From contig NZ_CP114777.1 of NCBI RefSeq assembly GCF_027359355.1, positions 1,116,001-1,180,000 on the forward strand: 64,000 bases of DNA, in the 5' to 3' direction. A program made the translations under genes and the position numbers. The number at the start of each line of letters is the position of its first letter. The first letter of the stretch is position 1. Below the pieces are notes generated by a model, which was not told where the DNA came from, ran no database searches, and saw nothing but the letters and a program-made list of their open reading frames with translations. Below, piece after piece: positions 15,316 to 59,691 of the stretch. Source of the stretch: Prochlorococcus marinus str. MIT 1214. Its GTDB lineage: Bacteria; Cyanobacteriota; Cyanobacteriia; PCC-6307; Cyanobiaceae.

Positions 15316-16416
15316 TCAACTAAAAGAATCTAACTGCATTAATTGTGAGTTTCGAACCCATTCACCTTCAAAAGATTCCACATGTGTTGCACTAATTAAA
15401 CACTGATGTTTTTGACCGACAGCCTCTAAAAGCAATAATTGTCGTTTGGGATCTAGCTCAGCCAACACATCATCTAAAAGCAAAATTGGATAATTTCCAT
15501 ACAGCGTTTTAATTAATTCTAATTCGGCTAATTTTAAAGCCAACACAATAGTCCTCTGCTGACCAGCAGAACCAAAACGTCTAGCATCTACCTCATTTAC
15601 TAAAAACTGTACATCATCACGATGAGGACCTACTCGACAATGACCCGTTATCTCTTCCTCAGACCTCACTTCTAAAAGTTGACTTTCAATACTCTCCCTC
15701 CAAATCCTTTCACTCTCTTCACCCTCAAGTTTACTCCCTGGCAAATATGTAATATCCAATTTCTCATGACTATTGCTTAGATATTGTTGCCAATTTGAAG
15801 CTATAGGAAGTAGACGATCTAAAACACGCCTACGTCTTCGATGAATTCTTGTACTCACCAAAGCCATTTGCATATCAAACGAATCTAATAGAATATTCTG
15901 ATTCCTACTCGACTCAATACTTAAATTACGCCAAAGCTGACTTCTTTGCCTAAGCAATCTAGAAAACCTTCCTATCAAATCAGAATAAATAGGCTCAAGT
16001 TGCTGGACAATTCTATCCAGCCAATTTCTTCTAAGAGAAGGTTCTCCTCTGATTAATTCTAGATCAAGAGCACTAAAGCCTACGCTTCTCATCGGTCCAA
16101 TTAAATCAATTTGACGAGTTAAAAGCTTTTCATTTTTGTAGGCTTTTCTACCACCTTTTCTATTTAATTCCAAAGAAAGTTGTTGATCATCTTCAATCAT
16201 CGCAGATAAACAAGCCTGATCTTGGTCCCAAAAAATCAAATCCTGATTCCGATTCGATCGATGAGAACGTAAAGTAGACAAGAGTTCTACAGATTCAAGA
16301 AGATTAGATTTACCAACTCCATTTTGACCTATGACTATCAAACGATTTTCAGTTAACTCAAACTGAAAACTTCGATAATTTCGAAAATTATTAAGTTCTA
16401 ACTGATGAAGTTGAAT
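15316..16416 (-). CDS. recF: DNA replication/repair protein RecF, with apparent ATT start
   Basis: ABC-type ATPase that loads RecA at gaps via RecOR. The coding frame includes the conserved N-terminal strand [12 protein letters not shown] before Walker A GQNGVGKS, but in that frame there is no ATG, GTG or TTG before a TTG at 16339-16341, which would delete about 25 conserved residues. An in-frame stop lies just upstream (two codons before ATT), so the only start giving the family N-terminus is ATT at 16414-16416. The ABC signature region [15 protein letters not shown] and Walker [12 protein letters not shown] are intact. It precedes speD. Confidence 0.85.
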
Positions 16417-16496
16417 GTTTCTTTATGGAATTTGTATGTAAGCTAATTTTAATAAGGTCTCAGATATTTGACCTTTTTTAATAAGACCCCTTCATT

Positions 16497-16570
16497 GGGC
16501 ATGTAGCTCAGTTGGATAGAGCATCAGATTCCGGTTCTGAGAGTCGGGGGTTCGAGTCCCTCCATGCTCG
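16497..16570 (+). tRNA. tRNA-Arg (CCG)
   Basis: A 74-base cloverleaf with acceptor GGGCATG paired to CATGCTC (one G-U pair), discriminator G, anticodon stem TCAGA/TCTGA around loop TTCCGGT giving anticodon CCG, and T-loop GGGTTCGAGTCCC. CCA is not encoded. It stands alone between recF and a convergent GNAT gene. Confidence 0.97.
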
Positions 16571-16583
16571 TAAATTTGATTTT

Positions 16584-47152: not shown

Positions 47153-48526
47153 CTAAACTAATCCCACTGGATCAGCTGCGATCTCATCAGGAATAGAATT
47201 ACCTCCTGAAGGGGGTTTATCTTTCAAAACGACTCTTAGCAAAACAGGCGCTAAAAATGTTGTTCCAATAACCATTAATAATATTGCAGCTTCAAGGGAA
47301 GGGGTAAGCAAACCAGCACTTGTTCCCAATCCTAAAAAAATCAATCCGACCTCACCACGAGGCATCATTCCCAAGCCAACTACTAATCGATTTGTTGGTT
47401 TATCAATTACAAAGCACCAACCAGCAGCAATTTTCCCAACAATTGCGACAATGAATAAGAAACCAGCAACAATAAGAGCAGAGCGACTTTGTGGATCAAG
47501 AGGATTGATTACAGAAAGATCCATACCTGCTCCAACAAGCACAAAGAAAATAGTTGCGAATAGCGATACCAATGGCAAAACAGATTGTTGAATTGCGTGA
47601 TTATTTTTTGAACTACTTAGTATCAATCCAGCAGCAAACGCACCCAAAGCAGCTTCTAAACCAATAGCAGTAGCGACAAAACAGCTTAAGACTAAAATCA
47701 CGAAAGAAGCTACAACCACAGCTCCTGGAGCTTTAAGTCTCTCAAGCAACCAATCAAAAGCTGGGGCAGCTGTACGACTCAAAGCAATTGCAGCAAATAC
47801 AAAAACAGTTGCAGCTAATACTAATTTAACAATGGGAGCAATCTGCAATGATCCTCCAGTAGCAAGAGCTACTACAACTGCAAGAATCACAATTCCGAGT
47901 ATGTCATCTAATACTGCTGCGCCAATAACAATTTGGCCCTCACGAGTTTTTAAATAACCAAGTTCACCAAAAACACTTGCAGTAATACCGATACTCGTCG
48001 CGGTCATTGATGCACCAGCAAATATCGCAGGAATAATATCTACTTGAAAAATAAACATTAATCCAAAAGTTCCAAAAGCAAAAGGCAAAATCACACCTGC
48101 CATTGCAACAGTAAAAGCTTGCGCTCCAACTGCTACAAGTTCCTCTAATTCACTTTCCAGACCAGTTAGAAATAACAACGCATATAGCCCTAAAGTTGCT
48201 ACTGCTTGTAATGATGGAAAAGTTTCAAAATAAATATCCGGGACTGCTTCTTTTGGTACTGAAGCAAGTGTGCTAATAAGAGAAACAAAACCTTGATTTA
48301 ATTCAGCATGAGCACTTGGGGGCAATAGAAGATGTAAGCCTGAGGCACCAATTAAAACTCCTGCAAGAAGTTCACCTACGATAGTTGGCAAACTTAATCG
48401 AACTAAGATTTCTGCTAAAGTCCTAGCCGCAACAAAGATCATTAAAAAATTAATGACCCCTATAAGTGTTTCAGCGACCTCAACATCATGTGTATTTAGG
48501 GCTGAGACTAAAGGAGTTAATACCAT
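47153..48526 (-). CDS. Na+/H+ antiporter (CPA2, NapA-like)
   Basis: Cation/proton antiporter with about twelve membrane segments. The 457-aa product has the CPA2 core (LSLPTIVGELLAGVLIGASG, TGLESELEELV, MTATSIGITASVFGEL, AVLDDILGIVILAVVVAL); the paired acidic residues in VLDDIL correspond to the two aspartates of the ion site. No C-terminal TrkA-N domain is present, so this is the membrane part alone, like NapA/NhaS3 of Synechocystis. ATG start. Likely role: Na+ homeostasis in seawater. Confidence 0.92.
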   Translation of the reverse strand: MVLTPLVSALNTHDVEVAETLIGVINFLMIFVAARTLAEILVRLSLPTIVGELLAGVLIGASGLHLLLPPSAHAELNQGFVSLISTLASVPKEAVPDIYFETFPSLQAVATLGLYALLFLTGLESELEELVAVGAQAFTVAMAGVILPFAFGTFGLMFIFQVDIIPAIFAGASMTATSIGITASVFGELGYLKTREGQIVIGAAVLDDILGIVILAVVVALATGGSLQIAPIVKLVLAATVFVFAAIALSRTAAPAFDWLLERLKAPGAVVVASFVILVLSCFVATAIGLEAALGAFAAGLILSSSKNNHAIQQSVLPLVSLFATIFFVLVGAGMDLSVINPLDPQSRSALIVAGFLFIVAIVGKIAAGWCFVIDKPTNRLVVGLGMMPRGEVGLIFLGLGTSAGLLTPSLEAAILLMVIGTTFLAPVLLRVVLKDKPPSGGNSIPDEIAADPVGLV

Positions 48527-48690
48527 CAGGTTTTCTAAAAAAGCCTTTTCTTTAAGACATAAATTACCTAATCACAGGGCACATTTGGCATAAGTATCAA
48601 AGGTGACTTAATTAATAAGGTGTGGATCTGAAGTTACTAACTGATTCCTAAAGTTTTATTGGCTAGCGTCCAGAAACATTTGATGCCTTT

Positions 48691-58443: not shown

Positions 58444-59691
58444 ATGATGGAGAAACTCCATCGAGTTGTTATTACAGGTCTTGGCGCCATTACTCCTATT
58501 GGCAACGACCTCGAAAGTTACCTCCAAGGGCTGCAATCCGGACAAAATGGGGTAGATCAAATAACACTCTTCGATGCCTCATCACATGCATGCAGATTTG
58601 CAGCAGAGGTGAAAAGTTTTGATCCGACTGGCAAATTAGAGCCAAAAGAATCCAAAAGATGGGATCGTTTTTCAAAATTTGGAGTCATTGCAGCAAAAGA
58701 AGCCTTGAATCATTCAGGGCTAATAATTGACGACTCAAATTCTGGAAGAATTGGTGTAATTATTGGTTCTGGAGTTGGCGGATTGCTGACTATGGAAACC
58801 CAAGCTCATGTTTTAGATAACAAGGGAGCTAGTCGAGTTAGTCCGTTTACTGTTCCCATGATGATTCCCAACATGGCTACAGGGCTCGCGGCTATTGCAC
58901 TTGGCGCTAAAGGTCCAAGTTCAGCAGTTTCAACTGCTTGCGCCGCTGGATCAAATGCTATCGGTGATGCATTCAGACTGCTCCAATTAGGCAAAGCAGA
59001 CGCAATGGTTTGTGGTGGAGCAGAAGCCAGTATCACTCCCTTAGGGGTAGCAGGATTTGCTAGTGCAAAGGCATTATCTTTCAGAAATGATGATCCATCT
59101 ACAGCAAGTAGACCTTTTGATTCTCAACGAGATGGATTTGTAATTGGAGAGGGGGCAGGAGTACTCATTTTAGAAACTCTTGATCATGCACTAAAAAGAG
59201 ACGCAACAATCCATGCAGAGATCATTGGTTATGGAACTACTTGTGATGCGCATCACATTACCTCTCCAACTCCAGGTGGAGTGGGAGGTGCAGAAGCTAT
59301 GAAACTTGCATTAATTGATGGACAAATTAATCCAGAAGAAGTCGATTACATTAATGCTCACGGAACTAGCACTCCAGCTAATGACAGCAATGAAACATCT
59401 GCTATAAAAACTGCTTTAGGACATTATGCATATAAGGTCCCTACAAGCTCAACCAAATCTATGACTGGGCATTTACTAGGAGGTTCCGGTGGAATCGAGG
59501 CTGTTGCTTGTGCTCTGGCAATAAAACATGAAATAATTCCGCCAACAATTAATTATTCCAATCCAGACCCAAATTGTGATCTTGATTATGTCCCCAACAA
59601 AGCAAGAGAAAAGAAATTAGGTGTCGTATTATCTAACTCATTCGGGTTTGGCGGTCACAATGTCTGTCTGGCTTTTCGACAAATGATCTAA
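58444..59691 (+). CDS. fabF: Beta-ketoacyl-ACP synthase II
   Basis: Condenses malonyl-ACP onto acyl-ACP, especially at longer chain lengths and low temperature. The product (415 aa from MMEKLHRV) has catalytic Cys in VSTACAAGSNAIGDA, His in NAHGTSTPANDSNET and His in KSMTGHLLGGSGGIEA. Two ATGs adjoin (58444 and 58447); the frame stays open upstream but that part lies inside acpP and is not used. Follows acpP by seven bases. Confidence 0.97.
   Translation: MMEKLHRVVITGLGAITPIGNDLESYLQGLQSGQNGVDQITLFDASSHACRFAAEVKSFDPTGKLEPKESKRWDRFSKFGVIAAKEALNHSGLIIDDSNSGRIGVIIGSGVGGLLTMETQAHVLDNKGASRVSPFTVPMMIPNMATGLAAIALGAKGPSSAVSTACAAGSNAIGDAFRLLQLGKADAMVCGGAEASITPLGVAGFASAKALSFRNDDPSTASRPFDSQRDGFVIGEGAGVLILETLDHALKRDATIHAEIIGYGTTCDAHHITSPTPGGVGGAEAMKLALIDGQINPEEVDYINAHGTSTPANDSNETSAIKTALGHYAYKVPTSSTKSMTGHLLGGSGGIEAVACALAIKHEIIPPTINYSNPDPNCDLDYVPNKAREKKLGVVLSNSFGFGGHNVCLAFRQMI

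Follow-up and report, generated by a model that had tools for sequence, protein, structure and literature searches.

A probable AUU/AUC start codon of recF, conserved across a cyanobacterial family, as a likely brake on RecF level

Introduction

As Binns and Masters are said to have described in 2002, the chromosomal gene pcnB of Escherichia coli is held low by an AUU start codon. This gene, which encodes poly(A) polymerase, comes from a bacterial group other than the one considered here. The start codon of infC, the gene of initiation factor IF3, is AUU in E. coli, AUC in Streptomyces and AUA in Staphylococcus aureus (excerpts of PMC5472188 and PMC13009471). Another described case is sigR from Streptomyces, which starts with GTC (32 of 34) or GTT (2); its product is harmful in excess and IF3 represses its GTC start (excerpt of PMC5472188). 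In S. aureus, reporters with AUU or AUA starts reached about 10% of the AUG level in poor medium, and the ccpN start up to 30% of AUG in rich medium (excerpt of PMC13009471). Strong Shine-Dalgarno (SD) motifs are reported for sigR, ccpN, cvfC1 and infC of S. aureus in passages of the same two papers (PMC5472188, PMC13009471).

Here, we describe the start of recF in the window, i.e. the whole stretch of 64,000 nucleotides of Prochlorococcus marinus str. MIT 1214 that was analysed, and we compare it with recF in other genomes. Proteins of the RecF family (TIGR00611) act with RecO and RecR in the loading of RecA at gaps. The family to which the window's genome belongs, which we take to be the picocyanobacterial family, is called below the family. 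Among the matches listed by a full-text search, whose scope left aside subscription journals and the annotations of UniProt and RefSeq, there was no paper on a non-canonical recF start; database curators may already have entered such starts.

Results

The recF gene of the window and its reading frame

One recF match was found in the window's genome (1.93 Mb, single contig). The features of the gene and of its 5' end are as follows:

15316-16416, minus strand: recF coding sequence, 366 codons plus a TGA stop (TIGR00611, PF02463 SMC_N and PDB alignments)
16414-16416, minus strand: ATT, probable non-canonical start codon of recF (position, comparison with the family and with outgroups)
16423-16425, minus strand: in-frame TAA stop 5' of the ATT, which excludes an in-frame start further upstream
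16339-16341, minus strand: TTG, first canonical in-frame start, rejected as main start since it would cost 25 residues

Read downward from 16440, the recF frame is TAC ATA CAA ATT CCA TAA AGA AAC ATT CAA CTT CAT CAG. Two codons (AGA and AAC) thus separate the in-frame TAA from the ATT, and ATG, GTG and TTG are all absent from the window sequence between this TAA and the TTG at 16341. The latter is located 25 codons inside the ATT, immediately before the Walker A motif (GQNGVGKS), which shares one open frame with the N-terminal strand when the gene is read from the ATT. The 366-residue protein translated from the ATT scores 286.1 bits against TIGR00611 (cut-off 172) and matches the model from position 1 to position 339 of 339, whereas the protein translated from the TTG scores 264.5 bits and matches only from position 25. 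The ORF also matches PF02463 (SMC_N). Furthermore, six distinct RecF sequences from the PDB were aligned to the ATT form: the alignment begins at its residue 2-3 for four of them and at residue 8-9 for the two others.

An earlier note on this DNA had reported that neither ATG, GTG nor TTG precedes the conserved RecF N-terminus and that an in-frame TAA lies two codons upstream of the ATT, and both statements agree with the reading frame (TAA at 16425-16423, ATT at 16416-16414). Its estimate that a start at TTG 16341 would remove about 25 conserved residues is borne out by the TIGR00611 match, which then begins at model position 25.

Conservation of the start codon in the family

The codon homologous to the ATT was read in 207 genomes of the family, the window's own included. 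It is ATT in 152 of them and ATC in 45, i.e. ATY in 197. Four genomes carry ATG exactly at this position. In the six others, which belong to two genera, the old start codon has become CCC (3), CTC (2) or GCT (1) and an ATG is found 1-6 codons upstream. These six genomes (L145, L286, L289, L290 and L291 from genus g32, and L142 from genus g73) form one clade on the RecF tree.

The 207 genomes comprise 34 of the window's genus and 173 others (one of which, G007, is also of that genus); they were picked for their spread over genera, not at random, and cover 54% of the family genomes in which recF was matched (382). They exclude the titled records L031-L056 and repeat fetches of the same genomes among L061-L108, as well as G013, a partial match with internal stops; neither the tree nor the codon columns include the four short rows L062, L064, L109 and L287. 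The 26 titled records, all from Prochlorococcus, overlap to a large extent with the genomes L001-L030; every one of them has ATT or ATC. In the window's genus, the partial recF match of G013 (54% complete; contig C28, 6369-6806) contains three TAA and corresponds to a broken copy or to an assembly fault. In the same genus, a recF match is absent from two drafts, G024 and G031 (92% and 96% complete), due to a gap or to a real loss. As judged from sequence comparison, ATT or ATC at the recF start is conserved by descent across the species of the family.

Canonical starts located elsewhere in the frame were considered and rejected. Upstream, there is none between the in-frame stop and the ATY in 172 of the 197 ATY genomes. 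An in-frame canonical codon is found somewhere upstream in 24 others, within four codons in L129, L180, L191 and L196, and in the remaining one (L223) the end of the contig cuts the sequence before any upstream stop. Downstream, no ATG, GTG or TTG is conserved, since the best column within the first 70 codons is canonical in only 76 of 203 genomes.

RecF could nevertheless be made from such a downstream codon, for instance TTG 16341, and would then be devoid of its first strand. This TTG is the first canonical in-frame start, the shortened protein still exceeds the TIGR00611 cut-off, and two PDB sequences align only from residue 8-9. However, only 69 of 203 genomes have a TTG at this column and, as stated above, no other column among the first 70 does better than 76. 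Moreover, 29 of the 194 ATY genomes scanned (out of 197), including L007 from the window's genus, have no canonical start at all between the upstream stop and the end of the Walker A lysine codon. The 24 codons between the ATT and the TTG are also under purifying selection, with a mean dN of 0.040 and a mean dS of 0.33 in the window's genus (first 401 usable pairs), and of 0.34 and 1.23 respectively in a wider set of other genera. A start downstream of the ATT is thus very unlikely.

Outgroups and reconstructed history of the codon

The same column was examined in 20 genomes outside the family, each from a different cyanobacterial family (out of 23 genomes of other families, G043, G050 and G052 being left out). 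It holds ATG in 13 of them and GTG in 7, followed in all 20 by a codon for Tyr or Phe and then by one for Leu. The RecF proteins of these cyanobacteria belong to the same protein family as the one studied here and have the same start column, but all 20 begin with ATG or GTG instead of ATY. This indicates that the column is the protein start in the outgroups and that only the codon changed in the family.

A FastTree tree was built from 223 RecF proteins after removal of their first residue; it is a single-gene tree, in which the outgroups make up one clade. One most parsimonious reconstruction of the start codon on this tree requires 25 changes in total: ATY replaces ATG once, at the base of the family; ATT and ATC are exchanged 12 times; ATG reappears four times, each on a single tip; three changes fall within the clade of six genomes that have an upstream ATG; and ATG becomes GTG five times among the outgroups. 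Hence, the most parsimonious scenario is that the ATY start of recF arose once, in the ancestor of the family, and that nearly all examined descendants kept AUU or AUC. Replacement of AUG by AUU was found in 1 of 61,358 reconstructed cases from 36 groups (excerpt of PMC5622118), a rarity that makes a family-wide AUU/AUC start unusual.

The earlier note proposed a true ATT start and suggested comparing the upstream codon in close relatives. This comparison, with ATT or ATC at the same codon in 197 of 207 family genomes and ATG or GTG in 20 of 20 outgroups, favours its proposal. The note also named two observations that would speak against it. One was a base-calling error that hides an ATG. Nothing was found in favour of such an error of sequencing or assembly, which is extraordinarily improbable, as 196 further genomes, some of them single-contig assemblies, carry ATT or ATC, and so do all 26 titled records, even if these are largely the same genomes. 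The other was the existence of homologs with a standard start. These do exist (four in the family and 20 in the outgroups), but they mark the position of the start and show that ATT/ATC replaced a canonical codon, so that they support the ATT instead of opposing it. Taken together, recF very probably starts at an AUU or AUC codon in the window's genome and in most of the family.

Leader region of recF

Three further features precede the ATT:

16440-16445, minus strand: TAGCTT, putative -10 element of recF (from conservation)
16417-16433, minus strand: predicted short leader of recF, about 15-17 nt, devoid of SD (from the putative transcription start)
16496-16571, plus strand: tRNA-Arg(CCG) gene, divergent, upstream of recF (ARAGORN)

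A motif search of the 300 nt upstream of recF found the end of the tRNA-Arg(CCG) gene in 202 out of 204 genomes of the family. Of 200 family genomes, 181 have a TAnnnT motif that starts at position -29 or -28 relative to the start codon. When the same 30 nt were shuffled in 200 rounds, the count averaged 13.7 and never exceeded 25 (a control that does not correct for relatedness). Since a simple scan detected no sigma-70 consensus pair upstream of recF, this -10-like element rests on its conservation and on the shuffled control. If TAGCTT is the -10 element, the leader would be about 15-17 nt long.

No SD motif was detected above chance in recF leaders. The median anti-SD energy, computed for all but one of the 201 rows that start with ATT, ATC or ATG (200 rows), is -1.1 kcal/mol for both real and shuffled leaders, and energies below -4 kcal/mol are obtained in 9% of real and 10% of shuffled sequences. 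Anti-SD pairing is weak as well for recF in the outgroups (median of -1.9 kcal/mol) and upstream of the first ATG in a set of 40 long ORFs from the window (-0.35 kcal/mol).

Leaders were also inspected for a start at an out-of-frame canonical codon upstream, from which the recF frame would be reached by ribosomal or transcriptional slippage. Genus g41 (leaders of L152-L181, L143, L144, L146 and L149) offers some ground for this: an ATG lies out of frame 13 nt upstream of the ATT in 31 of 34 genomes and in 21 of 34 the A of the ATT is the last of a run of 8 A. However, the last 20 nt contain no canonical triplet in any frame in 112 of the 196 ATY genomes scanned (out of 197), including the window's genome. 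Furthermore, a run of at least four A at the ATY is found in only 3 of 163 genomes outside g41, and 10 of 34 genomes within g41 have a run of at most four. Slippage would also leave unexplained why ATY is retained at that column. It is thus only a minor rival, restricted to genus g41, and most improbable as an account of the whole family.

Two other candidates were considered. A DNA-binding motif overlapping the ATT was rejected, as the following bases were seen by eye to vary by clade (ATTCAACTT, ATTCGGCTT, ATTTTTTTA, ATCCGGCTG). An initiator-like tRNA with a GAU anticodon was considered because it would read AUU and AUC but not AUA; a search of the genome with one exact initiator anticodon-arm pattern yielded two loci, both with a CAU anticodon. 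They correspond to two identical initiator-type tRNA-Met(CAU) genes located about 1.8 kb apart (L312 and L313; contig C1, 237644-237656 and 239474-239486, minus strand), whose flanking bases already differ.

Selection on the start codon

ATA is found at the recF start in none of 193 family genomes. This codon represents 953 of the 3370 internal Ile codons of recF; for genus g41, which is AT-rich, the count is 575 of 1216. On the same tree, the third base of the start codon shows 12 exchanges between T and C, four changes from Y to G and none from Y to A. The 22 fourfold columns of the same gene show 258, 297 and 257 such changes, respectively. Fisher tests comparing the start codon with the fourfold columns give p values of 0.039 for G and 0.0004 for A, and a comparison with four pooled Ile columns (51 T/C exchanges and 29 changes from Y to A) gives 0.016 for A; these values are rough, as reconstructed changes were treated as independent, fourfold sites are near saturation and the FastTree tree relies on a single gene. 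The evidence for a shortage of changes from Y to G is accordingly weak. The absence of ATA and the change counts indicate that the start codon differs in its behaviour both from an ordinary Ile codon and from a codon whose third base is free to change, and the ATY start of recF therefore shows signs of selective maintenance.

These counts bear on a rival explanation in which AUU/AUC is indeed the start but has nothing to do with any toxicity of RecF: the codon would have been fixed once by drift and persist as a frozen accident, tolerated by SD-independent initiation. A single origin of ATY on the RecF tree is compatible with it, as is the weak anti-SD pairing of both recF and the 40 long ORFs of the window, which suggests that initiation here may not need SD strength. 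In addition, four family genomes carry ATG, which is therefore not lethal there. However, one base change is sufficient for reversion and AUG is normally favoured, yet only four reversions, all at tips, are reconstructed against 12 exchanges between ATT and ATC. Changes to G exceed T/C exchanges at fourfold sites, which is the opposite of what is seen at the start codon, and ATA is missing from the start despite being common at Ile codons. We consider a frozen accident as unlikely, although it deserves far more weight than slippage or a downstream start.

Other ORFs of the window with a coding signal upstream of their first canonical start

A codon-composition scan of ORFs of at least 300 nt, limited to the 64 kb window, revealed four ORFs with a coding signal 5' of their first canonical start. 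Besides recF (25 codons), these are an ORF at 1479-1964 (7 codons), a Na/H exchanger ORF at 47153-48571 on the minus strand (15 codons), which is a possible second odd start, and an ORF at 58806-59123 (29 codons), which is short and has no Pfam match.

Discussion

The position of the start codon, its conservation, its reconstructed history and the lack of both another conserved start and an SD are directly supported by the comparisons presented above. The reading that we favour, with a probability of roughly two in three, is that the AUU/AUC start of recF acts as a brake on the level of RecF. As we infer it, the initiator fMet-tRNA would read the AUU as a near-cognate codon and the protein would begin with Met-Gln-Leu-His. 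IF3 would destabilise initiation complexes formed on AUU or AUC, so that little RecF would be made per mRNA. The ATY codon would thereby be a built-in brake keeping scarce a protein that is harmful in excess. The reason for such a brake may be that an excess of RecF destabilises replisomes, as it does in E. coli.

Published data on E. coli make this plausible. An increase of RecF of about 14-fold, from about 50 molecules per cell to about 700, leads to the loss of 1 log of survival; this toxicity requires the ATPase activity and is ascribed to destabilisation of the replisome, whereas an excess of RecO is not toxic (excerpt of PMC10287930). In a separate study, the count was about 18 RecF-YPet molecules in each cell (excerpt of PMC6451095). 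Together with the weak initiation reported for AUU, the toxicity of RecF in excess renders a brake acting at the level of the codon plausible. Both agree with the suggestion of the earlier note that the ATT could be a device for very low RecF levels. Since no SD exceeds chance, initiation on recF could be very weak or be aided in some other way. Moreover, the six genomes with an upstream ATG and the four genomes with ATG at the codon itself show that the proposed brake is losable.

A wider reading can be put forward only tentatively. The AUU/AUC codon, the lack of SD and the leader of about 16 nt might together constitute a lasting governor that ties the supply of RecF to initiation fidelity, i.e. 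to IF3 and to the state of the ribosome. If so, relaxed initiation fidelity during slow or energy-limited growth would lift RecF without any transcriptional SOS signal, and the use of AUY but never AUA would suggest a particular SD-free route of decoding.

The recF codon would represent a non-canonical start that is retained, on a core recombination gene, by an entire family of phototrophs of very high abundance. Gene prediction limited to ATG, GTG and TTG would misplace the start of recF in most genomes of the family, and the first strand of the ATPase would often be lost from the annotated protein. Furthermore, the 12 exchanges between ATT and ATC, the four ATG revertants and the clade with an upstream ATG offer natural material on the purpose of a weak start. 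The same material bears on the avoidance of AUA when no SD assists initiation.

Comparison with known non-canonical starts

Like recF, pcnB of E. coli has an AUU start, but it differs by its function and by the bacterial group in which it is found. Expression of infC is limited by its near-cognate AUH start, as we propose for recF (excerpts of PMC5472188 and PMC13009471). However, infC is autoregulated through its product, IF3, whereas RecF is not an initiation factor. Furthermore, the infC frame of the window's genome opens with ATG, so that the codon of recF does not reflect a general use of IF3 autoregulation. Autoregulation, which the earlier note had mentioned as a usual effect of non-standard ATT starts, is thus not indicated for recF.

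The start of sigR resembles that of recF in being non-canonical, with a third base that is swapped between species (excerpt of PMC5472188). The two differ by their codon class and by the conserved ribosome binding site of sigR, AGGAGGTG (same excerpt), recF having no SD above chance. In S. aureus, ccpN (AUA) and cvfC1 (AUU) also begin with conserved non-canonical codons, which in poor medium reduce expression to about 10% of the AUG level; both genes possess extended SD motifs, unlike recF, for which none was found above chance (excerpt of PMC13009471 for the S. aureus genes). A strong or extended SD, reported for sigR, ccpN and cvfC1 but not taken here as a defining trait of the class, is lacking in recF. 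As with infC-type starts, recF has no compatible canonical start, its codon is conserved by descent and relatives carry a canonical codon. Hence, recF joins the known genes with non-canonical starts (infC, pcnB, sigR and ccpN), among which it is unusual both for its lack of SD and for the depth of its conservation.
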